Source of the DNA: an uncultured bacterium
GTDB lineage: Bacteria; Verrucomicrobiota; Lentisphaeria; Victivallales; UBA1829
Direction: 5' to 3'
Length of the DNA stretch: 64,000 nt
NCBI GenBank assembly: GCA_902802585.1
Contig: CADCMR010000017.1
Location: 1 to 64,000, forward strand
The notes beneath the pieces are model-generated. The model was not told where the DNA came from. It ran no database searches and saw nothing but the letters and a program-made list of their open reading frames with translations. Positions 9,601-64,000 of this stretch are shown piece by piece (positions within the stretch are counted from its first letter, which is position 1; each line of letters starts with the position of its first letter). The translations under genes were made by a program, and so were the position numbers.

Positions 9601-9989
9601 ACCTCGAAGGCGTCCAGGAAATCGTCCGTGCGGAAGGCGGCGTCAACGACTGGACCATCAAGCTCGCGGGCGACAATGCCGGTCTCTACACCTACACGAA
9701 GGACGACTACTCCGTCACGATCTACAGCGTCGACGAGCTCTATGTGAACTCCAAGTTCTCCGCCGACCAGAAGATCGTCATCAACGGCGAAACGCTCGTC
9801 TACGGCGTCAACGCGTTCTCCTCCGTCGATCGTCATCACCGGCGACAAGACCGGCATGGACGTCTCCGCCGCCGGCTACGACGTCGAGATCGAAGACTCC
9901 GTCGTCGGCACCGTTCAGGCGAAGACCATCTACATCGACGACGACAGCACGATCGACACGATCGCTTCCGCCACGTCTCTGATCATTGA
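6651..9989 (+). CDS. Giant repetitive surface protein, 5' part (frame broken near 9828)
   Basis: Starts at ATG 6651 with an AAGGAG site. About 1,060 residues are genuine (to NAFSSV at ~9827); the remaining Arg/His-rich tail to 9989 is out-of-frame readthrough. The protein starts MAILDGNVYVNPAYTS with no recognisable signal peptide. It opens with a module of the type YVN...YT...G...GVNAF and continues with Gly/Thr/Ala/Asp-rich strands (ITGGEVNELIVGG, NLINYG, GDLENY), consistent with a long beta-solenoid. A second YVNS...YGVNAF module begins at ~9740 and is cut by the frame break. The natural product was probably one ~5,200-residue protein spanning 6651-22251. Function is not known; an extracellular adhesin or cell-surface layer protein is an inference. 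Confidence 0.8.
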   Translation: MAILDGNVYVNPAYTSQEAIDALGGTSSITGEVLEFGVNAFASGGTTSNVPAEGGTIFFQDVDRFTSSIYNDGTYDGVFLNTRSNYLYALPKVAGTADKSLNYTRDIIKIYVDGGTHQHITLLGRSNYVNLYGDLSFTAKNADLGQDNQNMGGGDSTDNSHCSIIGDVSFDISNCQSGGSFYVHYGSIGTAEEKVKITGKVVNFTLNRTDNNSPTFRGVRTGDNYGVWADYDLTVSSSWFKGSLEMGYATDNSTWEGNFVMNVSATTAANIYAFERATMEGLKGDHKFTLNILASEATTQAAVIGNFNEINIAAGATLTATASVNDAADLNIAIGGLIVTPALSGIGCINVTGEFVQADTVIISGLTSSSIDSLIMYGDQEITQGKFGGQYEILAGNLVIHNPSNVTVLVNSNYTNGQTTDLGVKGYSTLAAAQTAVTDKAKTTIMVTTLDTDVDPSDFTADLVTKDYLTVLDGANDALDLQGMNLIIGDTAADIENASVSVSNTTNINTIAFGNVTGTASVGIVDSDEIGTIDLTGAAITDAQISVEGSEIGDVILADNSATGGKITIKDSDIENVYGGAANLTADLTGKNTIENVYAEGQGSKIKLAGSHIGTYMAGSNTEGTEFETLTFNDGFDADKLIIGGNENIIDKIDATITGGEVNELIVGGEDDSIGDVDLTISGGKFSSVTIGEEAEITGAINVTLAGGTTAQRDNGVFYGLIYGASVTGTLDGNGGVLTVLGNAKVNAVENFGGLFVTGGTLNVAGGTDKSAVSTGNTLAINGDILNRRGINAGVITATGNLINYGVVGTIRDGENADVVAINLTGDLENYDYVMTAGMNVDGSLTNTGKITATGDITVGGAFSNSGELYFKAVSTQDGQFIQDGGLFLGGVDVVNTGFISAGSLSGVKNLTTSKLYVTGGAEITGNITIDAGAEVAFTNKADSSVENGLTLGGSIYMGDTSRLVVSGNLSTTGTKTITVNVGDLEGVQEIVRAEGGVNDWTIKLAGDNAGLYTYTKDDYSVTIYSVDELYVNSKFSADQKIVINGETLVYGVNAFSSVDRHHRRQDRHGRLRRRLRRRDRRLRRRHRSGEDHLHRRRQHDRHDRFRHVSDH

Positions 9990-15900: not shown

Positions 15901-18900
15901 GGTCTCGAAGAGGTCAACGTGGTCTTCGACAACGTCACGTCCCCCGCGGCCAAGTGGTGCTATGTCTGGGATCCGCGCGAAGGCACTGACACCAAGATCA
16001 CCATCACCGTGACCAACTCCACCTTCACCGGCGACGACCATACCCTCGGGTTCATGGGCGGCTCGACGGACGGCGGCTGGAGCGGCGACGGCGAATTCTA
16101 CATCAGCGGCTTCACCATGGGCGGCCGTCTCTCCGGCGCCCGCGGCAGAAACGACCAGGGCAACATCTCCAACATCACCGGTTTCCGTACGCTCTTTGTG
16201 GACGGCGACAACTATGCGCGCGTCATCCGTGACTTCTCGCGCATCGACGTTGCTGCGACCGCAGGCGTGCTCCGCGCGAATGATATCAACCTCTCCGAGG
16301 CTTCCGATATCATCCTCCGCGGCACGGAAGGCTACACCGGCGATGTCCGCGAGTACATCGTTGCCGGCAACACCATCAGCGGCATCCTCAAAGACAGTGC
16401 CTGGTTCCTCGACGAGAACAACAACGAGATCGAAGGCTACAAGGCCGCCATCGGCGACAAGACCGCCTTCATCTACAAGACCACCGGCGACGTCTACCTC
16501 AACAGTGACTACACCGTCGCGGTCAACGGCACCACCATCACGGATTCCGACGGAAAGTTGAACTACCTCGTGTTCGGCGACAACGCCGTCACCTCCTTCA
16601 ACGCCGCCATCGAATCCGCCAATGAACGTGTGGATGCCACGATCCAGATCGAGAACATCACTGCCAGAGACTTCTACACGAAGGGACAGAAGGTCTCCGT
16701 GAACGGCGGCCGTGTCACGAACGTGTACGGCGGCAACCAGCCGACCACCGAGAAGGTCGATTCCGGCGAAGTCGATCAGGAAACCGGCGAACCGATCATG
16801 GTCGACGTGACCGTCCCCGCTGATCCTGTCAGCGAGTCCGACATCACCATCACCAGCGGCGCGACCGTCTACAACGTCATTCTCGCCAACGAGAATTCCG
16901 CTGTTTCCGGCGACGCCACCCTCACCGTCGGCGACGGCGTTGCGTTCGTTACCGGCACCACCACTGGCGTCCTCGACGGCGGCATGGCCAACGTCGGCGG
17001 CGACAGCAGCCTGGTCTTCCTCGGCGATGCGTCCGCAAGGACGATCACCGGCTTCGACATGGTCACGCTCTCCGCGGACGGCATGGTCGAACTCGTCGGC
17101 GCCTTCGACGGCACCGCGATCACCATCGACGCCACGGACTACGTCGGCTCCACGAAGAAGGTCCTCGTTGCGGAAGGCGGCTTCGGCGACGTTTCCGCCA
17201 TCACGGTCACCGTGGAAGGCGACGCCAGCTACGGCTACCAGTTCCTCGACGACGGCAAGACCCTGGTGCTCACCACCACGTCCGTCAGCGACACCTTCGC
17301 GAACACCGCCTGGACCGAGGCTGATGTCCACAACCAGTTCGTCGGCGAAACCGCCCTCGTCTGGGGTGTGAACGCGTTCGACTCCTTCGCGGCGGCCGCG
17401 AACGCCATCGGTCAGGATGCCACCCTCACGCTCGACGGCGGCGCCTCCACCGAAGACGTTGTCCTGAAGAAGAACAACGACGTCATCGTCAACGCCGGCA
17501 CCGTTGCCACCTCGGTCGGTTCCATCACCGCTGACGGCGGCGCGCTCTTCGTCGAAAACGACTTCGTCGCCACCTCGATTGCCGGATTCTCCGCCCTGAA
17601 CCTCAATGCCAACAAGACCATCACGGTCAACGGCATGGAGATGGCGGCCGATTCCACGATCACGATCGACGTGACCGGCTATGTCCAGGAAGCCTCGGAC
17701 GTCGTGGTCATCTCCACGCAGGACGGCATCACCAACCTTGATACCGCGACCATCAGCGTGGCCGGTGAAAACGACAAGCTCTTCTACGCGTACTACGACA
17801 CCGAAGACAACGATGTGCACCTGATGCGCGTCGACAACTTCTACGTCGACGTCGCGTACGGCACCGCCGGCGAAAACATCCAGCCCGGCCAGGTCAACCC
17901 GATCACCGGCGAACCCCTGATCTGGGGCGTCAACGCGTTCTACTATCTCAACGATGGTCTCAACGCCATGAAGCCGGGCCAGTGCCTGTACATCAACGGC
18001 CGCATCGGCAACAACATCAATACCGGCGACCGGATGGGCAACATCTACATCACCAACAGCACCGTCCCGGTCCTGATCAACGGCTACACCTCCGGCGACC
18101 AGGTCTACACGGGCGGCGATGTCTGGCTGACTGTGGAAAACAGCACGATCGCCACGGCGGCCGGCAGCTTCCTGTTCGGCACCGTGACCATGGGCGAAGC
18201 CTGGAACCACAACCAGCACATCCTCGGCAACATGACGGTGAATGTGATCGGTTCTACGATCGGCGGCGACACCGGCGCGATCCTGGTTTCCGGCATGAAC
18301 TTCGTGAACGTCCTCGGCACGGCTGAAGAAGCCGCCACCATCACGTTCAACTTCGTCGACACCATCATCCGCGACGACTTCACGTTCGTCGGCGACTCCC
18401 CGCTCGGCAAGGATGAAACCTTCCAGGGCGTCACCCGCAAGGGCGCGAACCTTGTCATGAACTTTGACAATGTCCTCGTCCCGCAGGCCAAGTGGTGGAG
18501 AATCATGGATGGTGACCAGGAGTCCACCGGCACTGTCACTGTCAGCATCAAGGGCAGCACCATCGGCGACTTCGGTGGCGAAAATATGCGCTTCTCGCTG
18601 GGCAGCTGGCAGTATGGCGATCCGCGCAACCACCAGGACTTCAACTTCACGATCGAGGATTCGATCATCAACGGCTACCTGCAGTCCTCCAAGCACGACG
18701 ACGGCAACCACGCCGAACTGGTGAACTTCGACGGAAAGAAGTCCATCGTCCTCAAGGGCGACAACATCATTCGTCGCACCTACTGGTTCGATGAGATCAC
18801 CCTGACCGCGGGCGCGACCCTCACCGGCAGCGGCATCCGCATGGCCTCCAAGGGCGGCACGATCAACGTCGACGTCACCGGCTACACCGGAAAGAGCAAA

Positions 18901-21900
18901 GTCCTCGTCAGCATGAACGATGCTTTCGAGAACGTCTCCCAGATCAACGTGACCGGAGCCGAAGGTTCCGAGTACAAGGTCCTGACCTCCGACCGCGCCA
19001 TCGTCATCAAGGGCGCCGTCAAGGATATGTACGTGAACAGCACCTACACCGCTGAGACCTGCCCGGCCGGCACCGTCTACAACGGCGAGCTCCTGTTCTT
19101 CGGCGAAAACGCCTTCGCGCTCATCGACGAAGCCGTTCCGCTCCTGACGGACGACGCTGTCCTGTACATCACCGGCGGCACGAACCTCCTCGACCTCGCG
19201 ACCTGGACGCACAGCATCTCCATCGACGCCACCGCCGAGGTGGACTATGCCGGATCCGATGTGATCACGATCGCGGGCGATCTGGCGAACGCCGGTCTCT
19301 TCGTGATCTCCGCTGCTGGATTCGTCGGCTCCGCGGACATCACCGTCCTGACGGCGACCTCCATCACCGGCGACGGCACCTTCGCGACCGACGATGACAC
19401 CTACCTCGTCAAGGTCGTCGACGGCACCGAGGTGCACCTGATCCAGAAGAAGACCGATGTGTTCGTGAACACCGAATGGGCCGACCTCGCGGACGGCACC
19501 ACCGTCACCATCGGCGAAGTCCAGGCCACGGTCGGCATCGACGCATTCGCGACTGCCGATGCGGCTTCCGCGGCTGTTGCCGAAAACGGAACCATCATCC
19601 TCAACGGCGGTACGCTGAGCTTCAACGGCGCGATCGTCAACACGGTCGTCGCTCAGGACGGCGTCGTCGTCGAGAACACCAACGTCGGTACCGGCACCGC
19701 GATCGGTTCCCTCACGCTCCAGAGCGGCTCGGTCGGCAAGACCCTCGCCGTCCGCGGCAAGGGCATCCTGGCGGTCGAATCCGGCGTCAAGGTCTCCGGC
19801 CTCGGCATGGTCAAGGGCGCGTCCGTGACCTTCGCGGCCGGCTCCGTCCTCGACTTCGACATCTCCGGCACCACCGCCGGCGCGTCCCCGTCCGTGACGA
19901 ACTTCTCGGTTCTCCAGGGTACTCCGGACTACACGATCACGCTCCTCGCCGACCAGGCCGAAGGCGAATATCAGCTCGCAAGCGATGCCGCCAGCTTCAA
20001 CAGCGTCGTCACGCTGTTCGTCGGCGACTCCTCCATCGGCACTGCCTCGCTCGAAGCGGAACTCGTGACCACGAAGTACACCTACACGCTCGGCATCAAC
20101 GACGACAGCGTGCTCGTCCTCTCGGTCACCGAGAACGTCCTGCCTGAAGTCCCGACCCTGGCCTACGTGAACAGCGAATGGACCGGCCTCACCGACGGCA
20201 CGACCGTCACGGTCGGCACCGTCTCCGCCACGATCGGCTATGATGCGTTCGCGGACCTCGCGGCCGGCATCGCCGGTGTCACGGATGACGGTTCCGTCGA
20301 AGTTGTCGCCGGTACGGTCTCCTTCGCGGACGGCTACAGCAAGACCATCACGGTCGACGCTGAAGCCACCGTCGTCGGCACCGCCACCTTCGACAAGGCT
20401 CTCACGATCGACGGCACGATCCTGTTCGACACTGCGATCGCCACTGCGGAAGCCGCCCAGTTCGACGGCTTCAGCTACATCACCGGCGAGACGAAGTACG
20501 TGCTGGCGTCTCTCGACGCTGCCAAGGGCACCTACCTGCTCGCGTCCGATGCGGCCGACTTCGCCGGCAGCATCGTGTTCGGCGAATACACGCTGACCGT
20601 CGGCGGCGAAGCCGTCGTGGTTGGCGACCTCGCCTACTCGATCGGCATCACCGACAACAACGATCTCGCCCTCCTGATCGACGATGCGCCGGTCCCGCCG
20701 ACTCCGGATACTCCGGTTCACGCGTTCGTGAGCAGCGAGTGGACTGGTCTCGCCGACGGCACGATCGTTACGGTCGCAGGCGGCACCGCCAAGATCGGTT
20801 ACGATGCGTTCGCGACCCTCGCGGCTGGTATCGCCGGCGTCACCGCCGACGGTTCCGTCGAAGTTGTCGGTGGCGAAGTCTCCTTCGCTGACGGCTACTA
20901 CAAGACCATCACGGTTGATGCTGACGCTACCGTCATCGGTACCGCGTCCTTCCTCAACCTGCCGATCACGATCAACGGCACGATGGCCTTCGACGTCGCC
21001 CTCACGACCAGAACCGCCGCCCAGTTCGCGGACATCCAGTTCGTCTCCGGCGACACGCAGTACACGCTGACCGTCGACAACCCGACCGTCGGCACCTACA
21101 TGCTCGCCTCCGGCCTCTGGTACGACGCCAACTACCAGCCGGTCTTCACCGGCGTGGTGAAGTTCGGCGAAAACGAACTGACCGTCGGCAACGACATCAC
21201 CATCGGCGACTTCACCTACGGTCTCCGCACCACCGGCAACCTCGAGCTCATGCTCGTGGTCGACAAGGCTGTTGCTCCGACCGCCGAAGTGAGCTTCATC
21301 AACGCTTGCCTCGACGGTACCCAGAACATGATCGGCAAGATCTTCGCGTCCGAAGAGGCTGGCTTCTCGACCGAGATCAAGTTCTACACGCTCGACGGCA
21401 ACGTCTACGGCATGAGCGACCTGATCGAGGACGGCTGGACCTTCGCCGGCGTCGGCGACTTCAACGGCGACGGCATGGACGGCATGCTCCGCTTCAACAA
21501 CACCAACGGCCTGGTCGTTTCTGACAACGCCAACGGCAACGGCACGTTCACGCCGGCAGTCCTGAACCTGAAGAACGCCAGCTGGGATATCATCGGCACC
21601 GGCGACTTCAACGGCGATGGATTCGACGACGTCCTCGTTGCCAACCGCACTGCGTCGTCCGCGACGGTCGGCCTCCTCGGCTACTGGTCCAAGGGTACCG
21701 AATGGACGCTCATCAACGGCTACTCCGATGAGTGGACGCTCGTTGACACCGGCGACTACGACGGCAACGGCTGCTGCGACATGCTGTGGAAGAACAGCTT
21801 CGTCGGCGAAGGCGGCGGTACCTACAATGCGTACTGCACGTGGCGCCTCGGCGATCTCGCCGGCGGCATCGACTGGAGCATCGTCATGGTTGCCAAGGTC

Positions 21901-22251
21901 AACGAGACCGAGACGCCGGACACCGACGCCTGGAGTTACCTCACCACTGGCGACTTCAACGGCGACGGCATCTCCGACATCGCGATGATCAACGACGTTG
22001 GCACGGTTGCTGTTGCGACCATGGCCGCCGACGGCACCTCCAGTGCCTGGACGGTCCTCTCCGTCGTCGATACCAGCAGCTGGAACCTCGCCGGAACTAC
22101 CGACCTCAACCTCGATGGTGTCGACGACATCATCTGGTGCCAGGACGAAGTTGCTGGCGTCGGCTCGCTCGCCGGCTACTGGCAGATCAACGCTGATGAA
22201 TACAACCACCCGGTCATGACCTCGTGGCAGAACATCGGCTGGCTTGCCTGA
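9856..22251 (+). CDS. Giant repetitive surface protein, 3' part with C-terminal FG-GAP/VCBS module
   Basis: Open for ~4,131 codons from ATG 9856. That ATG has no Shine-Dalgarno sequence, so it is a continuation of the 6651 gene rather than an independent one. About fourteen further modules follow, each opening with a [LMV]YVNS.[YW]T...G...GVNAF...VTGG signature (for example at ~11500, 12090, 12600, 14650, 17310, 19025, 19460, 20160 and 20720) and followed by strands rich in G, T, N and D. Residues from ~21460 on form the propeller-like module: DFNGDGMDG, DFNGDGFDD, DYDGNGCCD, DFNGDGISD, DLNLDGVDD. The end GYWQINADEYNHPVMTSWQN resembles its sister proteins. The tandem hairpins at 22268-22337 end transcription. 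No anchor or sortase motif is visible. Confidence 0.85.
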   Translation: MDVSAAGYDVEIEDSVVGTVQAKTIYIDDDSTIDTIASATSLIIDADAVLTLTNTMPSTMHVVIDAEEGFGSRLVLDVDPEKVQLDAGSVTVISPEGKAYTALVLAGEGETVPAHLGDLYLISNDYVYFRKGNPAFVDGDTFDAATGDALFAGVNVFETRADAEAKALEVGGVLVLVGFNTSDTDVKGSSTVTTAFEFAPGGSSSLYGTDGDIYEGGDHTTMMIGSTVGTTVYGLNKAFNTSGNFTLIVKDSVFSGANFYITGNTYGSVMNGNIKAEITGSTIAGPSGTNNYSAYIGYGNFGTDEENPIDIDVTIKDSRLGVFRGINMSGTTATQINANINITVLDSTIGGHFYVINTADWVANAGANIYQSTYTAGSITVTMGGSSVTNTVRPGDSLTHGANALQVFNAPTTLHIVATEDSAVTQADWVMEWDTLIIDADARLELGHNLQFQTAYRGENANAFNGHDLDLDMAGTPITILVNMSGYEGGTHTVITAGEIYTDANLSSISVIGDNDLTGQCQLIYSGFRQIDSRYVLSRIGVFDKTDDMYVNASYTDAISGTTVGGQELFYGGNAHSEFDLAVEYASEWGGTIVVTGGNFEAQNFGGNNVDFQNGNIGEITMGSEADSLLKVGKNAVFTTADGSGKATMDIAKDATLGAVSNFKAIKFTADAEITAGTLDLSGTSIVVDVDDFTGSSHIVLTADAISGFDAANAVFIGKDADKYSMIQDGTTLVLKSAIQSNTYVNSEYTVETTGTILPDGTYLEYGFNAFSTLAEGAAALGGSANTLTVTGGSFADDVFELASGNLALADGVVINGVVVGNAKNAISVDGNVTLGGIEAISNITITTSSLLSADYIDLGTGGTIYVTGALGAGKVGNMTKIISTQAGISGASLAGDPGFYIYAQGNDVYLLDTTRIYLDPTFTEAVTGTTTFTGDTLIWGVNAFAVPSNTNLANATELNNALVTGGTLFISNWGTAGSQAGDVRTLKDVSIVAQGPTNFSIVFGNNGGGGHVVDNDINITVTNTGTPQGNTRVIHSNNDNARWTFNGNVIITFNGTGNFNTNASFGVIARSKFNGDLLQINMDGSKGMNNDADYWLFRDIAAGDYDNVKLIEVNITGVTTPNSKWAGLFAGNPNVSAKQVVLNMTDCVYRGGNWSYSLVDSGELARNTNFTVHLSGTTIEGLLSGQRKRDQNVPGTTSVYEGVRTLYVDGDKISRVQQAQMFNHFVLDARAQLIVNNNNNPRLGAIQFMAHNSSGQDSITIDVTNYDGADKMVLQAPSFSYGQQNASLDDIALYLTGDTEGKFAIGLGLSRGAFIITKNGDVLYNAQISTEDNGRAFGTSFILADHEDANAFNDYDAAKAAFDAHEAVNPGRSLFVSGNGDQSQAFYADGYAVTINGGTYDEVYGNDDEGSVASVSMKVTGGQFFTLATTDGGDVTGDARIELAGGKFGIPATYTTPDDPEEEPEIDEPEVPATIDGAKDSVGGVSSLVVSNDLSIAGSVVNWDIAYVNANTSVTGNFEATTITIDAAKTLKAEGDIVATTITIDATAYEGPTKVIAVSKSFESETPAVTIDGDIDIYDYRYVEDTLYLVSKNAGNVYLNSDWDESISGTIYNGELLVWGVNAVASMDTAIGMLTSDYTLFVTGGSYAGTYTFADNSKISIRDDATAITGLILGEGTNLTISGVTSGAVSIGSIAAVEGQTAGYNVVANSETAFGTIDGIRAFTFKAGQDISADGITYRENGGYLTVDFDGYTNGAGVGLQTVDGINNFLQYTVELADGSTVSRTTVGASNNTDKFMPYYDEAKKAVILAAPGEFAFLDPNASDADNGVVVTIDGKTSTKVYGYNESEWNVNSGRYTISGGTLFADGGEDTTFYWFFTAEPVNINIVNLRCGACVAGYNDDNPGHTRDGDFTVYAEGCTFTWFTAFAGQGTDASHQTFIVANLVPDDPEDPDTDYHYENGEWNLTFKGGTHDTNDFQVTNYANISGGTVNITFQDYLLRGDLQLFRRVYKNDGEGLEEVNVVFDNVTSPAAKWCYVWDPREGTDTKITITVTNSTFTGDDHTLGFMGGSTDGGWSGDGEFYISGFTMGGRLSGARGRNDQGNISNITGFRTLFVDGDNYARVIRDFSRIDVAATAGVLRANDINLSEASDIILRGTEGYTGDVREYIVAGNTISGILKDSAWFLDENNNEIEGYKAAIGDKTAFIYKTTGDVYLNSDYTVAVNGTTITDSDGKLNYLVFGDNAVTSFNAAIESANERVDATIQIENITARDFYTKGQKVSVNGGRVTNVYGGNQPTTEKVDSGEVDQETGEPIMVDVTVPADPVSESDITITSGATVYNVILANENSAVSGDATLTVGDGVAFVTGTTTGVLDGGMANVGGDSSLVFLGDASARTITGFDMVTLSADGMVELVGAFDGTAITIDATDYVGSTKKVLVAEGGFGDVSAITVTVEGDASYGYQFLDDGKTLVLTTTSVSDTFANTAWTEADVHNQFVGETALVWGVNAFDSFAAAANAIGQDATLTLDGGASTEDVVLKKNNDVIVNAGTVATSVGSITADGGALFVENDFVATSIAGFSALNLNANKTITVNGMEMAADSTITIDVTGYVQEASDVVVISTQDGITNLDTATISVAGENDKLFYAYYDTEDNDVHLMRVDNFYVDVAYGTAGENIQPGQVNPITGEPLIWGVNAFYYLNDGLNAMKPGQCLYINGRIGNNINTGDRMGNIYITNSTVPVLINGYTSGDQVYTGGDVWLTVENSTIATAAGSFLFGTVTMGEAWNHNQHILGNMTVNVIGSTIGGDTGAILVSGMNFVNVLGTAEEAATITFNFVDTIIRDDFTFVGDSPLGKDETFQGVTRKGANLVMNFDNVLVPQAKWWRIMDGDQESTGTVTVSIKGSTIGDFGGENMRFSLGSWQYGDPRNHQDFNFTIEDSIINGYLQSSKHDDGNHAELVNFDGKKSIVLKGDNIIRRTYWFDEITLTAGATLTGSGIRMASKGGTINVDVTGYTGKSKVLVSMNDAFENVSQINVTGAEGSEYKVLTSDRAIVIKGAVKDMYVNSTYTAETCPAGTVYNGELLFFGENAFALIDEAVPLLTDDAVLYITGGTNLLDLATWTHSISIDATAEVDYAGSDVITIAGDLANAGLFVISAAGFVGSADITVLTATSITGDGTFATDDDTYLVKVVDGTEVHLIQKKTDVFVNTEWADLADGTTVTIGEVQATVGIDAFATADAASAAVAENGTIILNGGTLSFNGAIVNTVVAQDGVVVENTNVGTGTAIGSLTLQSGSVGKTLAVRGKGILAVESGVKVSGLGMVKGASVTFAAGSVLDFDISGTTAGASPSVTNFSVLQGTPDYTITLLADQAEGEYQLASDAASFNSVVTLFVGDSSIGTASLEAELVTTKYTYTLGINDDSVLVLSVTENVLPEVPTLAYVNSEWTGLTDGTTVTVGTVSATIGYDAFADLAAGIAGVTDDGSVEVVAGTVSFADGYSKTITVDAEATVVGTATFDKALTIDGTILFDTAIATAEAAQFDGFSYITGETKYVLASLDAAKGTYLLASDAADFAGSIVFGEYTLTVGGEAVVVGDLAYSIGITDNNDLALLIDDAPVPPTPDTPVHAFVSSEWTGLADGTIVTVAGGTAKIGYDAFATLAAGIAGVTADGSVEVVGGEVSFADGYYKTITVDADATVIGTASFLNLPITINGTMAFDVALTTRTAAQFADIQFVSGDTQYTLTVDNPTVGTYMLASGLWYDANYQPVFTGVVKFGENELTVGNDITIGDFTYGLRTTGNLELMLVVDKAVAPTAEVSFINACLDGTQNMIGKIFASEEAGFSTEIKFYTLDGNVYGMSDLIEDGWTFAGVGDFNGDGMDGMLRFNNTNGLVVSDNANGNGTFTPAVLNLKNASWDIIGTGDFNGDGFDDVLVANRTASSATVGLLGYWSKGTEWTLINGYSDEWTLVDTGDYDGNGCCDMLWKNSFVGEGGGTYNAYCTWRLGDLAGGIDWSIVMVAKVNETETPDTDAWSYLTTGDFNGDGISDIAMINDVGTVAVATMAADGTSSAWTVLSVVDTSSWNLAGTTDLNLDGVDDIIWCQDEVAGVGSLAGYWQINADEYNHPVMTSWQNIGWLA
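20161..20971 (+). repeat. Duplicated module within the giant gene (561-bp offset)
   Basis: Segments 20161-20410 and 20722-20971 align without gaps at a constant 561-base (187-codon) offset. Both encode SEWTGL.DGT.VTV followed by GYDAFA.LAAGIAGVT and DGSVEVV. They are the most alike pair of modules in the protein, so this looks like a recent tandem duplication. Confidence 0.7.
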
Positions 22252-55519: not shown

Positions 55520-56030
55520 CGCCGGAAGAAGCCGGTTTTTCCCTCAGGGTGGCGCTCGACTTGGTGCCGGGGTGACGCAGGGGAAAACAGGGAGTCCGAC
55601 ACGGAAAAGAGGGGAAGAAACGGGGAAGAAAGCCCGTTTTTGAGCGTAAAAATGGCGGAGAGAGGGTGCGTCTCCCGCGATTTGCCAAATTTCGCTCAAA
55701 AAACCGCAAAATCGTCGTTTCTACCTCAGATGATGTACATAATGGCACATTTTTAGGCGCTTTTTCTTTGATGAAGCGGGGAAAAAATGGGCCATTTCCC
55801 ATCCCTTATGGGGAAAAAATGGGGAAGAAATGGGGAAGTTTTTTTGAGTTGTATATCAGCCATCAGACAGCGAGTTGATCACCGCGATCTTCTCTTTGAA
55901 CTGCCCGACATGATACTATACCACGAAAAATCGTTAATTCAAGGTCGAATACCTGCGGAAAGAAGAAAAAAACTACCCGATGCGCCTCACGCACCGGATA
56001 GGGATATGCTGTCCGATATGGCAGTCAGGG
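55520..56030. other. Intergenic region at the presumed edge of the mobile element
   Basis: There is no convincing gene in these ~510 bases. An imperfect copy of the 3' end of the ZIP gene (55494-55525 compared with 55541-55572, offset 47) lies directly after it. Further on are purine-rich words (GGGGAAGAAA repeated around 55,600 and 55,820) and an imperfect palindrome near 55790-55815. Composition becomes more A/T-rich toward the right. Confidence 0.45.
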
Positions 56031-56396: not shown

Positions 56397-58109
56397 TCAG
56401 ATGGAGAGAGGCAACGGGATCTCTTCCTGTTCTTCCCCGGAACAGTCGTCCGTTGCTTCAGGCGGGGGGCAGAGGAGCTTCTGCACCTTGGAGACGTCGA
56501 GCAGCCGGAAGCAGTCGAAATACCGTTCGGCACCCTTGGCCATTTCGGGCGGGAACTCCTGCGCGATATCGCTCGGTTTGCGAATCCATCCGAGCTTGCG
56601 AGCTACGGCAACATTCAGAGCTTTCATCAGCTCGATGTTGAACTTGATGTGAACGTTGTTGTTGAGATAGCACCGGAAGGCAAAGAGGACCGTCTTATAA
56701 TCGTCCATGAAGACCGTACCGCGTTTTCCCCAGGTCTCCGGCATCTGGATAAAACCTGTCTTGAATCCGAGGTTGAACGCCACGGCACAGACGTCCTCGA
56801 TTTTACGCTGACACGAATCCCTGACTCTGGGCTCGCAGCAGCTGTGCCATCCCTCACCCGGCAGAGCGTATTCCGTACAGACGATGCGGTAGTCGAGCGT
56901 GTAGTGCGTGGAACGCGGCTTTTCGCCCCATCTGGAACGGAACTCCTCGAAGACACGCTTGTTCGAGGCATAGTTCTGCACGTTCGCCGGACAAGAGAGA
57001 GCACAGAACAGGTCGATCATCTGCTGCTCGGAGAACTTGTTGTAGTTCTTGATGACCCAGACGATCATCGCGTACAAGTTCGACGGTGTGAAATCCACGC
57101 TTTTCAGGATGGCGAAGCGTTCCAGCATATTCCGTCTTGAGGTTGACGTCAGGCGGGATGTGATCTCTTCGAGGCAGTCGAAAGCGGCTTTCCAGTAAAG
57201 GGCCTTCAGGCCGCTGAACCTCATCTTCAGGGCTTCCTTGACCTTTTTCTTGTGAACGCCGATCGATTCCAGCACAGCAGAATCAAGCCCGGCAATCGTT
57301 TTGAAGTGATTGAAGAGCTCGGTTCGCGCCTCCTCATAGCCGTTGCAGAGAAGCTCCACCTTGTTCTTTGCTGCGGCCAGTTCAGATTTCAGCTTGCGTT
57401 CCTGCTGTTCCACCGCCTTAAACTCAGCGTCCCATTTGTCGCCGTTGTCGTCGGGCATCCCGAAGATCTCGTCGAACATGTAGCTGAATCCGGCATCGTC
57501 ATCCATCCAGCTCTTGTCGATGTGGAGGATGTCAACTTTTGCCCGTGCATTACGTTCGGCGTTCATGAAATCCGCATGACCGAGCACACTGACGAGCTTT
57601 GTTCCAGCCGGAGCTTTCAATGACCTCAACGCGAGCTGAATCGTCCTGCTCTGTTTCCAGCGGCTCGGAATGATGAGAAAGATATCGTCGCAGTTGCTTT
57701 CGAGGATAATCCGGCGAGTCCACTCCTCGTATTCCGAATACGGTGGATTGCAGAAGATCGTATCGACCTCTTTGTCGATGAGCGTTGCCTCGTTGAAGTC
57801 CGTACCGAGCACGATCACGTCCGGGTCAAGCCTGTCGATCAGGATATGGCTCTTCTCGATCACGTAATACTCGTAAATATCCACGGACGAACGTTCTCCC
57901 GCTTCCTGATTGAGCTCGCCGATCCATTTGCGGAAGTCGCATTTGCCACAGCCGATGTCCAGCACTTTTCCGAAACGGTAATGACCGGAACGGTTTTTGC
58001 TCTGAAATCTCCAAATCCGGCGAATCATATCGCGTGTGGTCGGGTAGAATTCAAAATCTTCTCCGTTCTCTTTGAGCTCTGCGATCAGCCCGTACATTTG
58101 CTTGTTCAT
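56397..58109 (-). CDS. N6-adenine-type DNA methyltransferase with DUF4942 C-terminal region
   Basis: A 570-residue protein. ATG 58109 has AAGGA at proper spacing; an ATG two codons earlier (58115) is possible. Residues ~20-220 hold a SAM methyltransferase fold: EFYPTTRDMIRRIWRF, motif I VLDIGCGKCDF, and the adenine-methylase NPPY in IFCNPPYSEYEEW. A basic coiled stretch follows (AVEQQERKLKSELAAAKNKV). The rest matches DUF4942-type regions of phage and plasmid proteins. It may protect element DNA from restriction; no cognate nuclease gene lies next to it, though the Fe-S nuclease at 58913 is close. Confidence 0.78.
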   Translation of the reverse strand: MNKQMYGLIAELKENGEDFEFYPTTRDMIRRIWRFQSKNRSGHYRFGKVLDIGCGKCDFRKWIGELNQEAGERSSVDIYEYYVIEKSHILIDRLDPDVIVLGTDFNEATLIDKEVDTIFCNPPYSEYEEWTRRIILESNCDDIFLIIPSRWKQSRTIQLALRSLKAPAGTKLVSVLGHADFMNAERNARAKVDILHIDKSWMDDDAGFSYMFDEIFGMPDDNGDKWDAEFKAVEQQERKLKSELAAAKNKVELLCNGYEEARTELFNHFKTIAGLDSAVLESIGVHKKKVKEALKMRFSGLKALYWKAAFDCLEEITSRLTSTSRRNMLERFAILKSVDFTPSNLYAMIVWVIKNYNKFSEQQMIDLFCALSCPANVQNYASNKRVFEEFRSRWGEKPRSTHYTLDYRIVCTEYALPGEGWHSCCEPRVRDSCQRKIEDVCAVAFNLGFKTGFIQMPETWGKRGTVFMDDYKTVLFAFRCYLNNNVHIKFNIELMKALNVAVARKLGWIRKPSDIAQEFPPEMAKGAERYFDCFRLLDVSKVQKLLCPPPEATDDCSGEEQEEIPLPLSI

Positions 58110-58134
58110 GGGCATGTCCTTTTGTTTGAAAACG

Positions 58135-58177: not shown

Positions 58178-58909
58178 TCAGGCGGCGAAGAGAGCCGCAG
58201 GACGACCGTCAAGGCCAAAGGCTCGGTTGAGCGCGCGGTAGCTGAAGTCCACGCGTTGCGGAGTGTACTTTTTCACGATCTCCGAAAGCGCGTTCATCAA
58301 GCTCCAGCGGGTCGGCTCTTTGAACTCGATATGCGAGGGCTTTTTGAACTCGTTGAACACGGGCAGGATGTCGCTCGAATTGATCACGCCGAGCTCGGCA
58401 GCTCGGACAATTGAACTCCGGGCTTCGTCGTCGTTCTTCAGGTACACGTCCTTCAGGTCCTCGCAGACAGTTTCCATCGTCAGGAAGTCGTCTTCGAGCG
58501 AAGCGACAGCCCGGTCGATCAGCTCGGACAGGACAATGCCGCTCGTATGACGGCGTTTCACGACCGTGGTTCCGCCGAAAGCGAGATTCGTGCAGACGCA
58601 TACGGCGATTCCAGCCGAGAGACCAACCGCAATGCTCTTGTCGTGGCTGTTTCGCAGGCCAATGCAGCGATGCCATTCAGGGGATATCGAGGAAGTTATT
58701 TCCATCACTCCGAAGAGGCGTTTCCCCTCGTTGACGAGGCCGAACTTTTCGCCTTCGATATCCCAATTATGGGCTTTGATGACGTTGGTCACGGCTTCGA
58801 TTACGTCGATGTGCGGCACAGGCCGCCAAGTAGCGGTTGAGCTCGGGGTGTCGGTTCTTGCGACTTCATCCCTGCTCACGTATTTGCCTTCTGCCATGAT
58901 GAGTCCCAT
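58178..58909 (-). CDS. DUF932 family protein
   Basis: A 243-residue protein. Stretches PVPHIDVIEAVTNVIKAHNW, KLFGVMEI-like KRLFGVMEIT, IGLRNSHDKSIAVGLSAGIAV and VCTNLAFGG are typical of DUF932 proteins, which are common on plasmids, phages and integrative elements. Their function is not firmly known. The start is three bases after the stop of the nuclease gene, so the two are translated from one transcript. Confidence 0.82.
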   Translation of the reverse strand: MGLIMAEGKYVSRDEVARTDTPSSTATWRPVPHIDVIEAVTNVIKAHNWDIEGEKFGLVNEGKRLFGVMEITSSISPEWHRCIGLRNSHDKSIAVGLSAGIAVCVCTNLAFGGTTVVKRRHTSGIVLSELIDRAVASLEDDFLTMETVCEDLKDVYLKNDDEARSSIVRAAELGVINSSDILPVFNEFKKPSHIEFKEPTRWSLMNALSEIVKKYTPQRVDFSYRALNRAFGLDGRPAALFAA

Positions 58910-58912
58910 AGT

Positions 58913-59704
58913 TCACGCGACCTTTCTGTGAACCGCCTTGCAGCGGCTACCATAAGCGCACTCGGCGCAGTTCATGCATGATTCGACCGGGAGAAAGATG
59001 CCGGTATTGACGGCTTTCTCGATCTTTCCCGCGAGGAAGACGAAACGTTCGAAGTCATCGTGCGACCTGAGCGTGTAGAACTGGTGATGGGCGGGCTTCT
59101 GGCCCTTGGTGAAGACATCGAACCGGAACACAGGATTTGTGCCGTACTTCTTCTGGTAGGCATAGCAGAACGTCGTAGCCTGAAGATCCCGGTCAGCCTT
59201 GCCGTTCGGCCACTTCATTGAAGCGGTCTTCCAGTCACAGATCGTCTCGTCTCCACCGTCAACGGTAACGAGGTCGAATTCTCCGACCAGCGGTTTCGAG
59301 AGTCCGGGCACGTCCACGCTGAAGGCTTCGGCCACGCTTTTGACCGTGTAATCGTCCGGCCATTCGGCGAGGGCCACTTCGAGCATGTCGCAGCCACGTT
59401 TGTCCCAGAACCAGTAGTCTTCATCCGGCTTGTATGTCAGGTTCTCACTGACCTCGGTCTCACCTCGGAAGTAGACGGCGAAATCTTCCTTCGCGTCCTG
59501 GATGGTGTAGCTGGTGCCTTTGCGAGCACGGTCGGACAGCACCATGTGAAAGGCTCGACCGAACGGAATGCTGATCGAGGTGCGCTCCACCTCGGCATGT
59601 TCGATGTATCGGAAATAGTACCGCATCGGACACGTGAGGTAGGTATTGAACGCCGAATACGACCAATGAGGCGTCTCGCGCATGGTTTCGATTTGTCGTT
59701 CCAT
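58913..59704 (-). CDS. Cas4/RecB-like PD-(D/E)XK nuclease with Fe-S cluster cysteines
   Basis: A 263-residue protein from ATG 59704, four bases after the preceding stop (ATG 59743 would overlap that gene). WSYSAFNTYLTCPMRYYFRY gives the first cysteine. The nuclease core shows SIPFGRAFH, GEFDLVTVDGGDETICDWKT (the D...(E/D)xK signature) and ATTFCYAYQKKYG. The C-terminal CMNCAECAYGSRC supplies the remaining cluster cysteines, as in Cas4 and AddB-type nucleases. No CRISPR array or cas gene is near, so a role in element recombination or end processing is more likely. Confidence 0.85.
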   Translation of the reverse strand: MERQIETMRETPHWSYSAFNTYLTCPMRYYFRYIEHAEVERTSISIPFGRAFHMVLSDRARKGTSYTIQDAKEDFAVYFRGETEVSENLTYKPDEDYWFWDKRGCDMLEVALAEWPDDYTVKSVAEAFSVDVPGLSKPLVGEFDLVTVDGGDETICDWKTASMKWPNGKADRDLQATTFCYAYQKKYGTNPVFRFDVFTKGQKPAHHQFYTLRSHDDFERFVFLAGKIEKAVNTGIFLPVESCMNCAECAYGSRCKAVHRKVA

Positions 59705-59708
59705 GAGG

Positions 59709-60176
59709 TCACGCCGCCTTTCCGCTGAGCTCGTCGATGGCACGACTGCACTGCGTTTTGGTGAGGCTTTCGAGCGCGGGCACGTTGAACTTCGCCTTGA
59801 TCTGCTCCGGATTGATTCCGAACTGCCTGGCGAGGTCGAGAAGGTACTTGACCTGTTTCGGACTTGCGGGAGCCTCGGAGGTCGTGCCGTTCTTCTTGCC
59901 GTAACCGTTTTTGTTCTGCTGTGCAGGGTTCATCTGCGGAGCATTCGGGACGTTTTCTGCAGGGAGAAGAGCAGGCTGATTCGGGGTGGAATTGTTCTTC
60001 AGTTCGTCTTCCACGCTTTTGCGGAGCAAATCGAAGTTTTCGTGAATCTTCGCTTCGATCTGTTCGGGCGTGAGTCCGTCAGAAAGCTCGACTTCCATAC
60101 AGACGTGGTACGACTGGCTGGAGTATTCGGTTTCGGCCGGGACTTTCTTTGCGTATGCGGTGTTGAGTTTGAGCAT
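59709..60176 (-). CDS. Hypothetical element protein with C-terminal shared helical motif (A)
   Basis: A 155-residue protein. ATG 60176 has AAAGGA upstream. The N-terminal ~60 residues (TEYSSQSYHVCMEVELSDGL, then TPEQIEAKIHENFDLL) resemble small proteins seen beside phage recombination genes. A low-complexity Asn/Pro/Gln linker follows. The last ~50 residues (SPKQVKYLLDLARQFGINPE, then LESLTKTQCSRAIDEL) form a small helical domain that recurs in the two genes upstream. A role in DNA binding or recombination is a guess. Confidence 0.65.
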   Translation of the reverse strand: MLKLNTAYAKKVPAETEYSSQSYHVCMEVELSDGLTPEQIEAKIHENFDLLRKSVEDELKNNSTPNQPALLPAENVPNAPQMNPAQQNKNGYGKKNGTTSEAPASPKQVKYLLDLARQFGINPEQIKAKFNVPALESLTKTQCSRAIDELSGKAA

Positions 60177-60269: not shown

Positions 60270-60653
60270 TTATTCGTTTTCGGAGCGTTTCTGTTTGCGT
60301 TTCATTTTCGGCAGGATGTCTTTGACAATGACGTCTAAAGCATCACTCCCGGTAAGATCGTTGATACAGTCGGCCCCGTACCTTTTACAAACTGCTTTTT
60401 CCGAAAGATGGTGTTCCTTCAGGATTTTCTTGAATTGCCGGGCAAGCTTCGAGGTGAGCGTCTGATCCAGGCGTTCGAAGAAGTCGGGTTCAGTGGAGGA
60501 GGCATCCAGATCACCGGGCCATAGACCACTGTTTTTATACGCTTCAAGCGCGTTTGAGATCAGCGTCAGCAGCGCAGATATTTTTTGGACGTTCATTTTG
60601 AACTTGACCAGATTATGATTCGGCGGAGCATTGAGAGAAATTAAAACTTGCAT
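60270..60653 (-). CDS. Hypothetical element protein with shared C-terminal motif (B)
   Basis: A 127-residue protein preceded by AAAGGA. Its C-terminal part (SKLARQFKKILKEHHLSEKA, VCKRYGADCINDLTGSDALD) aligns with the ends of the proteins encoded at 59709-60176 and 60683-61108. The N-terminal ~75 residues resemble nothing I know. The C-terminus is very basic (KMKRKQKRSENE). Confidence 0.6.
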   Translation of the reverse strand: MQVLISLNAPPNHNLVKFKMNVQKISALLTLISNALEAYKNSGLWPGDLDASSTEPDFFERLDQTLTSKLARQFKKILKEHHLSEKAVCKRYGADCINDLTGSDALDVIVKDILPKMKRKQKRSENE

Positions 60654-60682: not shown

Positions 60683-61108
60683 TCAGGGTTTACGTTTGAT
60701 CTCGCTGACAATATCAGTAGCGACACTTTTCGGGAGGTCTTCCAGATGGTTCACGCCGTACGCCTGACAAAAAGCGGTTTCGTCAAGGTTCCGCTTTCCC
60801 AGAGATTCCTTGATGCAATACAACTGCTTTTCGGTGATTTTTTCAACGGGCCCCGGTTGGAACGCTCGTGCTTTTGACGTTGACGTCTTCCTGTTCAAAA
60901 CAGGAACATCCTGCACATTAACCTCATCGTTCGACAGAAGGCGGGCCGGAGGAACACCTTTCAAGGACTCGGCAATAGGTTCAGGAAGATCATTCATCAT
61001 CTCCTGTATCTTGTCCTTGACGCTTCCTTCAACGACCTCAGTGACATGGATCTGAACCGAGGGCTGACCGTTTTTGATTGCGTAAAATAGTTCGATTGTT
61101 TTTGCCAT
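60683..61108 (-). CDS. Hypothetical element protein with shared C-terminal motif (C)
   Basis: A 141-residue protein preceded by AAGGAG. The N-terminal ~45 residues (AKTIELFYAIKNGQPSVQIH) look like a small beta-rich domain. A polar linker follows, then ITEKQLYCIKESLGKRNLDE and FCQAYGVNHLEDLPKSVATD, the same C-terminal motif as the next two genes. No known family recognised. Confidence 0.6.
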   Translation of the reverse strand: MAKTIELFYAIKNGQPSVQIHVTEVVEGSVKDKIQEMMNDLPEPIAESLKGVPPARLLSNDEVNVQDVPVLNRKTSTSKARAFQPGPVEKITEKQLYCIKESLGKRNLDETAFCQAYGVNHLEDLPKSVATDIVSEIKRKP

Positions 61109-61241: not shown

Positions 61242-61505
61242 TCAGGCGGCTCCGGTTGCCACACGGACACGTTCAAGCGTGCGCTTAGTCTGCTGGTACT
61301 CGCGTTCTTTCTGCCGCTGCGAGATTGCGACCTCGCGAACTTTGCGGGCCAGGGCCGCGGATTCGTCGAACATGGTTTTCAGCTTGGCCTTCATATCTTC
61401 GATGTTGGCGGTCAGCTCGTCGAGCGGATTTGCAGGTTCCTGGTTCTGGGCGGACGTCCGCATGGGAGTGGACACGGTGTGGGTGATGGTGGTGGATTCG
61501 TTCAT
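61242..61505 (-). CDS. Possible internal start yielding a separate coiled-coil protein
   Basis: Inside the clamp frame an ATG at 61503-61505 (Met416) follows a strong AAGGAG by eight bases. Starting here gives an 87-residue protein (MNESTTITHTVSTPMRTSAQ onward) made of the coiled-coil part alone. It is in frame with the clamp, so both products could be made. Confidence 0.4.
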   Translation of the reverse strand: MNESTTITHTVSTPMRTSAQNQEPANPLDELTANIEDMKAKLKTMFDESAALARKVREVAISQRQKEREYQQTKRTLERVRVATGAA

Positions 61506-62750
61506 GGTGGGTTTCTCCTTTGTTGATTGGGTATTGGGTATGGCGGGATTATCTTGCGGGGGAGGAGGAATCTGTTCGGTGACGGATTCCGAGGTTTCGG
61601 GTACGGGCTGAGGTCCGTTCTGCTCGGTCTGGTTTTCGGGCTTTACACCCGTTTGGGCGGATGCGGTCTGTTCCGGCTGCGCTTCAGTTTGAACATGCGG
61701 TTTCTTGATATACAGGGGCATCGCGACATACTGTCCGATACCACCAGTTCCGACAAACGGACCGAGGGTGTCGCTGAATCTGAGCTTCGTGTGGCCTTCG
61801 TCCAGCATGTGTAAGAGTATTTCCTTGCGGATGACAATGCTGAACTCGCCCCAGTTCGAATCGAACTCGGCCGGAATACTGAAATCATGTCCGTCCGCGT
61901 CACGAAGCGTGAACAGCCCCGCCGTATCGCGGTAGAGCGTGATGCCGTTCAGCATCCTGGTGTTCGCAATGCTTTTCAGGAAGGACTTCAAGCGGTTGGC
62001 CTGCTCCTCGGTGAAGCTGACGGAATACTTCAGGTTAATGGTCTTCGGCATAACGCGCTTCCATTCAGGATACGCGCCGGGAAGAGCCTTTGCCGTCCAG
62101 CTCCACTTGTCGATCTTGACCATGAAGAACACGTTGAAATCGTTCTTCCACGTTTTCAGCTCGCCCGAACCGATTGCCCTGGTCGCCATCAGCGCTAACG
62201 GGAATGGGATCGTCAAGTCGTCGAGAGAAAACCGATAAGGGCAGTTGAATAGCTCCTTGCCGTTTGTGGCGGTGATGCCATCCTGACTGAGATTGATCCC
62301 GTGGAGGATCTTTCGCGGTTCTTTCAAGTCGACCAACTGAGCAGCAGCAGAAAGGGTATTGACGAAAGTCCACGGTAACGGCATCGTTGCTACCGAATCC
62401 CCTTCCATAGGCCCGGCAACATCCCAATCTCCTTCCATCGGGGCAATCGAAACGCCGTCTATGCTGAGTTTACCATCGGCGAACTCGAACTTGATGTTCT
62501 TGTTGCGGCTGTTCTTCACGATTGACCGGAAAAGATCGAAGTCCATGGCGATCTTGAAGGGGTCCATCCCCTCGGCATCCATTCTGAACTCGATTTCCTC
62601 GTCTGAGTTATGCGTTCGGAAGAAGAGCGCGTTGTTGATTGATTCGATCTGTACGGCATGATACATCGGGATTGGCGATGTGCGACAGACCAGTTTCCCC
62701 AGAGCCGATAATGCTCCGGCCAGTTCTGTTTTATTAAGTGTATTTTCCAT
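61242..62750 (-). CDS. DnaN-like sliding clamp with Pro-rich linker and coiled-coil C-terminal extension
   Basis: A 502-residue protein; GGAGG lies seven bases before ATG 62750. Residues 1-~385 follow the beta-clamp pattern: KTELAGALSALGKLV and FEFADGKLSI in domain I; GITATNGKELFNCPY, equivalent to the ATDGHRL strand, in domain II; GAYPEWKRVMPK, equivalent to GRFPDYRRVLP; and the C-terminal YVAMPLYIKK, equivalent to YVVMPMRL. Residues ~386-415 form a Gln/Pro/Thr-rich linker (VPETSESVTEQIPPPPQDNP) and ~440-500 a charged coiled coil. The clamp tethers polymerases and other proteins to DNA. An element-encoded copy implies dedicated replication. Confidence 0.78.
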   Translation of the reverse strand: MENTLNKTELAGALSALGKLVCRTSPIPMYHAVQIESINNALFFRTHNSDEEIEFRMDAEGMDPFKIAMDFDLFRSIVKNSRNKNIKFEFADGKLSIDGVSIAPMEGDWDVAGPMEGDSVATMPLPWTFVNTLSAAAQLVDLKEPRKILHGINLSQDGITATNGKELFNCPYRFSLDDLTIPFPLALMATRAIGSGELKTWKNDFNVFFMVKIDKWSWTAKALPGAYPEWKRVMPKTINLKYSVSFTEEQANRLKSFLKSIANTRMLNGITLYRDTAGLFTLRDADGHDFSIPAEFDSNWGEFSIVIRKEILLHMLDEGHTKLRFSDTLGPFVGTGGIGQYVAMPLYIKKPHVQTEAQPEQTASAQTGVKPENQTEQNGPQPVPETSESVTEQIPPPPQDNPAIPNTQSTKEKPTMNESTTITHTVSTPMRTSAQNQEPANPLDELTANIEDMKAKLKTMFDESAALARKVREVAISQRQKEREYQQTKRTLERVRVATGAA

Positions 62751-62797: not shown

Positions 62798-62950
62798 TTC
62801 TACAGGAGGAATATATACACGTTTTATTTCGATTTGCATATTTGAGATAAAAATAGAAACTATTACACTCAATCTTGCTGAATTTTAATCAGAATCATTA
62901 TCTTTTTTCATTCTTAATATTTGAAACATTGTTTTTTTGCGTAAAGGATA

Positions 62951-63421
62951 TTAATTCACTCTGGAACAAGAGAAAGCACGTTGATGAGAAGGAAGGATTT
63001 TCTGTGGATGCTTAGGAAAAAAGGAAGATGAGAATAATGTATTAAAGATTCTTTCTTTATCATTTTGCAAAGTATCTGCTTTGATTGGTATATCTGCAAT
63101 AAACTCTATAGGATCAGTGGAATACAATCTCCAAATACGTTGTGCTGCTTCTGTAATATCACGCACATCATTACGGAAATATCCATTTACAACGAGTATA
63201 AAGTTGTAACAATCTCTGTTTGAGTCAAAAGACCATGAATAGACTGGACGCAAATCTGCACGACGCAGGAGAGACAGAAAGGAACCGAGATACCTTACAA
63301 ATGCAGAGTGGTCATGTACATTAGGGAAGCAGTAGATGGCTGCTCTGGCAGAACCGAATGCTATTGCAAAAGCATCGATCATTGAACTGATTCTTTCGAC
63401 TTGAGTTGTTTCATCGGTCAT
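62951..63421 (-). CDS. Inovirus Gp2/YagK-YfjJ-like protein
   Basis: A 156-residue protein. The central part, FVRYLGSFLSLLRRADLRPV followed by YSWSFDSNRDCYNFILVVNG and ITEAAQRIWRL, resembles YagK/YfjJ (DUF3296) and inovirus Gp2-type proteins, which are suspected replication or mobilisation proteins. The usual His-rich HYH motif is replaced by YNF, so catalytic activity is doubtful, and the C-terminal region is shorter than usual. It faces away from a second, similar gene at 63822. More A/T-rich than the chromosomal genes to the left. Confidence 0.5.
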   Translation of the reverse strand: MTDETTQVERISSMIDAFAIAFGSARAAIYCFPNVHDHSAFVRYLGSFLSLLRRADLRPVYSWSFDSNRDCYNFILVVNGYFRNDVRDITEAAQRIWRLYSTDPIEFIADIPIKADTLQNDKERIFNTLFSSSFFPKHPQKILPSHQRAFSCSRVN

Positions 63422-63821: not shown

Positions 63822-64000
63822 ATGAAACTTCTAAATCCTAATGAGCAAATGAAATATTCCATGAACAACAAGATATTTGAAAGAGCAGATGCTCTCTTGT
63901 CTCAAGCATTAGATAAACACAGTCAATTGACTATAACGAGATTTGAAGTGCATCCAGTGAAAGAAGATATAAACATAATGAGATTTAATCAAAGGCTTGT
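63822..64000 (+). CDS. N-terminus of a second Gp2/YagK-like protein (3' truncated by window)
   Basis: The ATG at 63822 follows AGGTG and the frame stays open for 59 codons to the window edge. The peptide includes FERADALLSQALDKHSQLTI and TRFEVHPVKEDINIMRFNQR, a pattern of the N-terminal region of Gp2/YagK-type proteins (a helix ending in LLERAL followed by a hydrophobic RFDL-like strand). It may be the replication initiator of the element. Confidence 0.45.
   Translation, partial: MKLLNPNEQMKYSMNNKIFERADALLSQALDKHSQLTITRFEVHPVKEDINIMRFNQRL

Follow-up and report, generated by a model that had tools for sequence, protein, structure and literature searches.

Introduction

Few proteins of DNA replication have been studied as thoroughly as sliding clamps. 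The bacterial β sliding clamp (DnaN; PF00712/PF02767/PF02768, TIGR00663) has a three-domain fold, and phage processivity factors of the family phrog_947 are a further group of clamp relatives that bears on the protein described here. In the literature that we searched, no clamp is described with a conserved internal start for a free tail partner, and neither internal starts in clamps nor the clamps of Lentisphaerae are the subject of any paper relevant to the present case.

Single genes that give rise to a full-length protein and a separately translated part of it are known from other systems. In the phage endolysins LysIME-EF1 (PMC7098653) and LysP7951 (PMC9430671), an internal ribosome-binding site leads to the production of free C-terminal domains, which assemble with the full-length chain in ratios of 1:3 and 1:5, respectively. 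In the type I-D CRISPR pair Cas10d/Cas11d, as this is described within PMC10327210, an internally translated part partners the full-length protein on DNA and joins it in the active complex. RpnS, a C-terminal oligomerisation domain translated separately from a ribosome-binding site and start inside a horizontally moving gene, inhibits the full-length nuclease RpnL (PMC10327210). The separate part in these known pairs either builds an active complex (the endolysins and Cas10d/Cas11d) or acts as an inhibitor (RpnS).

Here we describe a gene for a divergent clamp with a coiled-coil tail, found in a 64,000-nucleotide stretch of DNA (the window) from an uncultured bacterium of the class Lentisphaeria. 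Like the endolysin genes it has an internal ribosome-binding site and start predicted to give extra C-terminal domains, although the proteins and their function are unrelated and co-assembly is a prediction for the clamp tail. It resembles RpnL/RpnS in that a C-terminal oligomerisation domain has its own ribosome-binding site and start, and in that the gene appears to move horizontally. However, the N-terminal part here is a clamp rather than a PD-(D/E)XK nuclease, which is encoded by a separate gene (58913-59743); the tail is conserved rather than hypervariable, and no toxicity is known for the clamp gene. Cas10d/Cas11d belong to an unrelated protein family and system.

A Divergent Three-domain Clamp

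The gene (61242..62750, minus strand) encodes a protein of 502 residues, which the open reading frame, profile and PDB searches, AlphaFold, and Foldseek divide into a clamp body, a linker, and a coiled-coil tail. In profile searches residues 1-345 matched phrog_947 with an E-value of 7.5e-16. Scores for the 502-residue protein against TIGR00663 (43.5 bits, cutoff 137.65) and PF00712 (22.4 bits, cutoff 24.4) fell below the curated cutoffs. A sequence search of the PDB matched the protein to entry 4trt (E 1.2e-8), and the clamp family profile matched 41 PDB clamp sequences.

A single-chain AlphaFold model, run with 21 homologues, gave a confident DnaN-like body of three tandem domains at residues 1-350 (61701..62750, minus strand; pLDDT mostly 80-94), an unstructured linker at residues 351-439 (pLDDT ∼30), and a single helix at residues 442-499. 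The closest Foldseek match to the model was the Escherichia coli β clamp (PDB 3q4j) with an E-value of 7.3e-24, a probability of 1.00, and a TM of 0.72-0.77 on the target. The original prediction had been made to depend on structure prediction yielding the three-domain clamp fold, and in this model it did so; the clamp was, however, thought to extend over ∼385 residues, whereas it ends near residue 350. By alignment, the T-x-G-x-x-L and M-P motifs of the clamp peptide-binding pocket are largely retained, but the position equivalent to E. coli Arg176 is occupied by an invariant glutamate, Glu166.

By fold the 502-residue protein is a member of the β sliding clamp superfamily, and by its sub-cutoff scores it is a divergent member rather than an ortholog of replicative DnaN. 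Its likeness to clamps is one of fold and sequence, from which ring formation and DNA binding are predicted. A standard host DnaN is encoded on another contig (G000:C3:153032), so the protein at this locus is an extra clamp and not the single standard clamp of the genome. It differs from DnaN also in the added linker and coiled-coil tail, and in adjoining nuclease and DUF932 genes while the host retains its own DnaN. With respect to phrog_947 the difference again lies in the tail, as the phage and viral-contig collections searched held no relative with a coiled-coil tail. In one relative (L191:3539-5342, G170:C116) the clamp body runs in frame into ∼250 unrelated residues, with no coiled-coil tail.

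The Linker and the Coiled-coil Tail

The linker (residues 351-441; 61428..61700, minus strand) is predicted to be disordered and is rich in proline, threonine, and glutamine, with 15 Pro, 15 Thr, and 12 Gln in residues 351-440. The part ahead of the internal start discussed below is highly variable in length, the distance from P345 to the start methionine being 12-73 amino acids in relatives, and has a dN/dS of 0.49 (residues 351-410). The following helix comprises 58 residues (442-499; 61254..61427, minus strand) and has a clean heptad pattern, with a mean hydropathy of +2.2 at positions a/d and of −1.1 to −2.4 in the other five registers. The Pro-rich linker and the coiled coil of ∼60 residues read from the sequence at the outset are thus both borne out.

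In the main set of relatives the dN/dS is 0.14 for the coiled coil and 0.12 for the clamp. These ratios indicate purifying selection on the tail about as strong as that on the clamp body. Five polar residues of the tail are invariant (R469, E473, Q478, Q480, and R483), which could mean that the coiled coil has a partner other than the tail itself.

A Conserved Start Codon and Shine-Dalgarno Sequence inside the Linker

Codons 411-412 contain the sequence AAGGAG (61515..61520, minus strand), which precedes Met416, as had been noticed at first sight of the DNA; 9 nt separate it from the ATG (61505..61503, minus strand). The 3′ end of the host 16S rRNA, GGATCACCTCCTTT, carries an anti-Shine-Dalgarno sequence that matches it. 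Translation from Met416 would give a second product, a free tail of 87 residues (61242..61505, minus strand).

Conservation of this signal was followed through three sets of relatives. Among 21 aligned relatives, the linker has only two invariant columns, E412 and M416. All 55 close relatives that cover the linker (51 distinct) have an ATG with Shine-Dalgarno-like bases upstream, the variants being AAGGAG, AAGGAA, CAGGAGG, ACGGAGG, and similar sequences. An out-of-sample set was drawn from other families once the pattern was known; its 21 distant relatives with a tail have ATG (19) or GTG (2; AAGGAGCCCATCGTG) at the boundary, each with a Shine-Dalgarno sequence. A third set consisted of 10 clamps from further families, of which eight were reached through the neighboring nuclease and two were extra copies in one genome (G188), and the internal start signal was present in every one, once with GTG. 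It is also found (AAGGAGAACAGCGCC-ATG) in the one distant relative outside the class Lentisphaeria that a phylum-wide search detected (G264). Altogether, an in-frame start with a Shine-Dalgarno sequence stands at the linker/tail boundary in 88 of 88 distinct clamp-plus-tail frames (85 ATG and 3 GTG).

These 88 counts are not independent events; the probability of the pattern was estimated over the 18 clusters below 40% identity into which the frames fall, the lowest identity to the window protein being 16%. Inside the clamp body, which served as a control, a Shine-Dalgarno-like 4-mer precedes only 19% of in-frame ATGs; on a conservative estimate, the probability that all 18 clusters have the internal start by chance is ∼2e-7. 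Among the 18 cluster representatives, ATGs with a Shine-Dalgarno sequence near the boundary number 20 in frame and 5 and 0 in the other two frames. Since clusters this far apart share the start, shared neutral inheritance is implausible. A conserved in-frame start codon with a properly spaced Shine-Dalgarno sequence, as in described genes within genes, is what this boundary contains.

Selection Acts on the Nucleotides of the Start Region

Residue 411 is mostly Lys, Gln, or Thr and more rarely Asn, Met, Glu, or Pro. The third base of its codon is nevertheless G in 48 of the 55 close relatives, where the codon usage of the genes themselves predicts 27.4 and that of the linker 21.8. Likewise, 45 of the 55 have GAG as codon 412, with 23 expected. 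The amino acids under the Shine-Dalgarno sequence vary, whereas its bases are conserved. We considered and rejected KExxxM as a protein motif, since residue 411 changes where the underlying bases do not, and since three frames have GTG in place of ATG.

Just upstream lies a stretch nearly devoid of synonymous G (61521..61550, minus strand). Wobble G at positions −45 to −16 is about 10-fold depleted, with 18 observed and 169 expected in 375 codons from 55 sequences, whereas a control region 30-90 bases downstream is normal (330 observed, 363 expected). The distant set behaves likewise, with 16 synonymous G observed upstream against 59 expected and 112 against 113 in the downstream control. On the approach to the start, the base profile is rich in A/C and almost without G; a block of purines follows from −14 to −9, and the segment over the start is A-rich. 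Both the clamp and the coiled coil have dS values of 0.6-0.8, whereas just past the internal ATG the value is 0.27. The wobble statistics and dS together identify selection at the nucleotide level on the start region.

One locus of the cassette (L031) lacks the clamp body and has the tail as a separate gene for 87 amino acids. This gene has AAGGAG and ATG where Met416 would lie, and the same neighbors flank it. This layout shows that the linker/tail boundary can, to judge from the DNA, serve as a gene start. The locus has no nuclease gene and the C terminus of its tail has diverged, so it may be decaying. Truncated copies of both kinds, tail-only and clamp-only, also exist (L093, L097, L098, L099, and L033); we set these aside as evidence for a separate tail, since they look like decay, deletions, or contig junctions.

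Two explanations of the signal would make a second protein unnecessary. SD-like sequences within genes can slow ribosomes, and a Shine-Dalgarno sequence placed just past the clamp body, within a flexible linker, might make ribosomes pause, giving the clamp time to fold ahead of tail synthesis. Pausing would not call for a start codon at a constant distance, yet all 88 frames keep one, GTG in three and ATG in the others; moreover, the G-poor, A/C-rich flank and the low dS past the ATG are features of initiation sites, and in L031 a separate gene begins at this start. We regard pausing as a very improbable explanation. Alternatively, the start might be an unused relic of an old fusion between a clamp gene and a separate tail gene, a history to which the separate tail gene at the same cassette position in L031 and the truncated forms of both kinds would lend themselves. 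A relic should decay, but the Shine-Dalgarno bases have been kept through amino-acid substitutions and at 16-20% protein identity, and codon choice at this site runs opposite to the surrounding trend; we give a relic hardly any credence. Either explanation accounts poorly for the start codon, the GTG substitutes, and the codon pattern.

The conserved start with its Shine-Dalgarno sequence, the kept bases, the depletion of G, and the separate tail gene of L031 argue that the gene very probably encodes two proteins, the clamp-tail fusion and an 87-residue free tail. That the internal start is used, taken by itself, seems to us very probable. The suggestion in the original prediction that a separate coiled-coil protein may also be made gains support at the sequence level from the 88 conserved starts, the wobble bias, and the L031 gene. 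What was most speculative in that prediction has become its best-supported element.

Operon Organization and Neighboring Genes

The clamp gene heads a conserved operon and is followed on the minus strand by genes for small proteins of 141 (60683..61108), 127 (60270..60653), and 155 residues (59709..60176). By open reading frame and gene order the first two are present in some copies of the cassette; the third is the most conserved small cassette gene, conserved in its first 60 residues and its C-terminal region. Next come a PD-(D/E)XK nuclease (PDDEXK_1; 58913..59743; PF12705, E 4e-22), which adjoins the clamp across the class, and a DUF932 protein (58178..58909; PF06067, E 1.2e-11), a partner gene in nearly every copy. 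A DNA methyltransferase-like/DUF4942 protein (56397..58115), found in few copies, occupies the variable end of the cassette. The order in most complete copies is clamp-tail, 155-residue protein, nuclease, DUF932, and then variable genes. Upstream of the clamp are a gene for 156 residues (62951..63421, minus strand), present there in many same-genus copies, and the start of a divergent Rep-like gene (REP_ORF2-G2P/YagK_YfjJ; PF23343, E 1.6e-6) on the plus strand (63822..64000, running on to contig base 64364).

A promoter-like site, TTCAAA-17-GATAAT, identified by consensus match only, lies upstream of the clamp (62897..62925, minus strand), and a terminator-like hairpin of 13 pairs with a T-rich tail follows the methyltransferase gene (55973..56001, minus strand) at the likely end of the operon. 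The two are compatible with one operon. A sequence scan of the linker found no minus-strand promoter-like site, and a single message is therefore the simplest source of both products.

Most full-length nucleases of the PDDEXK_1 family across the class sit within a few kb of a clamp; no clamp was detected beside those at L194, L199, L204-L208, and L211, several of which are near contig ends. The idea that the arm recruits the nuclease is thus a suggestion drawn from conserved gene order. The methyltransferase, also named at the start as a candidate partner, is not a general one, being present in only few copies. No clamp-loader gene was recognized in the cassette. A search of the PDB with a model of the DUF932 protein, asking whether it is an annealing protein, gave no match below E 0.001, and papers on DUF932 give no function in their titles or abstracts. 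Intact cassette DUF932 proteins end in or near GLDG-x(3-4)-[LI]-[FW], which is loosely like a C-terminal clamp-binding motif. The three small proteins (60683-61108, 60270-60653, and 59709-60176) seem by eye to share a C-terminal region of ∼45 residues, which Pfam did not recognize and which suggests duplicated partners.

Three further open reading frames were recorded around the cassette or elsewhere in the window. A SLFN_AlbA_2/HATPase_c_4 protein is encoded a little outside the window, beside the Rep-like gene (L002:2219-4066, contig bases 65219-67066). A 101-residue reading frame, 83-98% identical among copies and with no Pfam match, lies beside several copies of the cassette (L002:4024-4329, L023:12967-13245, L049, and L055). 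A 4131-residue reading frame at 9856-22251 (plus strand) has FG-GAP repeats near its C terminus, and an open frame of almost equal extent (9808-22209) runs along the opposite strand.

Distribution and Possible Mobility of the Cassette

The clamp-tail protein occurs in Lentisphaeria from gut and rumen genomes and in the isolate Victivallis vadensis DSM 14823, whose relative (L086) bears the internal start signal too. There are two copies in the genome of the window, five in G005, and about eight in G188. A search of the class at E ≤ 1e-8 matched 125 of 198 genomes, with ordinary DnaN matches included at the weak end. A metagenome-assembled genome titled Anaerolineaceae (L092) has a distant clamp that is truncated at the end of its contig and neighbors a D5/DUF5906-type primase-helicase; this contig is possibly misbinned.

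In one genome (G034) a 4.8-kb block from the clamp to DUF932 is duplicated at 98% identity. The same genome has a reverse-transcriptase reading frame, similar in appearance to those of group II introns, that terminates immediately ahead of a clamp copy, at the edge of the duplicated block (L038 with flank L118, G034:C1). Comparison of cassette copies revealed shared blocks but no element-end repeats and no integrase, and a search of the 64-kb window for tRNA genes marking element ends found none. The clamp has no relatives in IMG/VR or in the phage and plasmid collections searched, and the nuclease none in viral contigs, so no virus or plasmid identity can be assigned.

The several copies per genome and the 98%-identical duplicate suggest mobility, and to that extent they agree with the original description of a mobile element, of which the integrase and the ends were not found. 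The absence of matches in the virus, phage, and plasmid collections and of an identified integrase or element ends would also suit a second host clamp for ordinary chromosomal replication or repair, a possibility that concerns the setting only. We think this improbable: copy number ranges from 0 to about 8 per genome, the copies are in unrelated places and patchy even within a genus, and the recent 4.8-kb duplicate at 98% identity, the decayed copies, and the Rep-related neighbors all speak for an element clamp.

Discussion

We propose that ribosomes starting at the first ATG would make the 502-residue DnaN-like clamp with its disordered linker and coiled-coil tail, and that ribosomes starting at Met416, through the Shine-Dalgarno sequence embedded in the linker codons, would produce the free tail of 87 residues from that one message. 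The coiled-coil nature of the tail makes pairing between free tails and clamp tails the likeliest arrangement. If both products accumulate, the ring would carry a mixed bundle of arms, their number set by the ratio of the two products. The bundle may then recruit operon proteins, serving as a scaffold for the small proteins, the PD-(D/E)XK nuclease, and DUF932 in replication or recombination of the carrying element. For this mechanism as a whole, comprising two products, their co-assembly, and a ring-borne scaffold for operon proteins, we judge the balance to be slightly favorable.

The same two products could be put to the opposite use, with the free tail as an antagonist that caps clamp tails or occupies their partner and so keeps the clamp-nuclease machinery off until needed. 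The layout of RpnL/RpnS, in which a separate C-terminal oligomerisation domain inhibits the full-length protein (PMC10327210), matches closely, and the operon here includes a nuclease gene. On the other hand, the harmful enzyme would in this case be another polypeptide and not the gene's own N-terminal part, and the tail is strongly conserved rather than hypervariable. By analogy with the known pairs, complex-building would suit a coiled coil that is conserved, within a cassette of several genes that is conserved as well, better than inhibition would, and we consider an antagonist unlikely.

In the scaffold mechanism that we prefer, the clamp would represent a hitherto undescribed class carried by mobile cassettes in which one gene yields an armed clamp and free arms, a ring of tunable valency tethering the PD-(D/E)XK nuclease and DUF932. 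We advance this class tentatively, at a little short of an even chance. Joined to it, and held with the same reserve, is the view that the internal start is older than the split between the Lentisphaeria families and has been retained ever since.

The comparative evidence for the internal start is unusually strong. The locus brings the study of clamp-tethered nucleases together with that of genes within genes, in a class of bacteria that has received little molecular work. The nuclease-clamp-DUF932 operon has had no name, and ordinary gene finding would miss the second product of the clamp gene everywhere it occurs.
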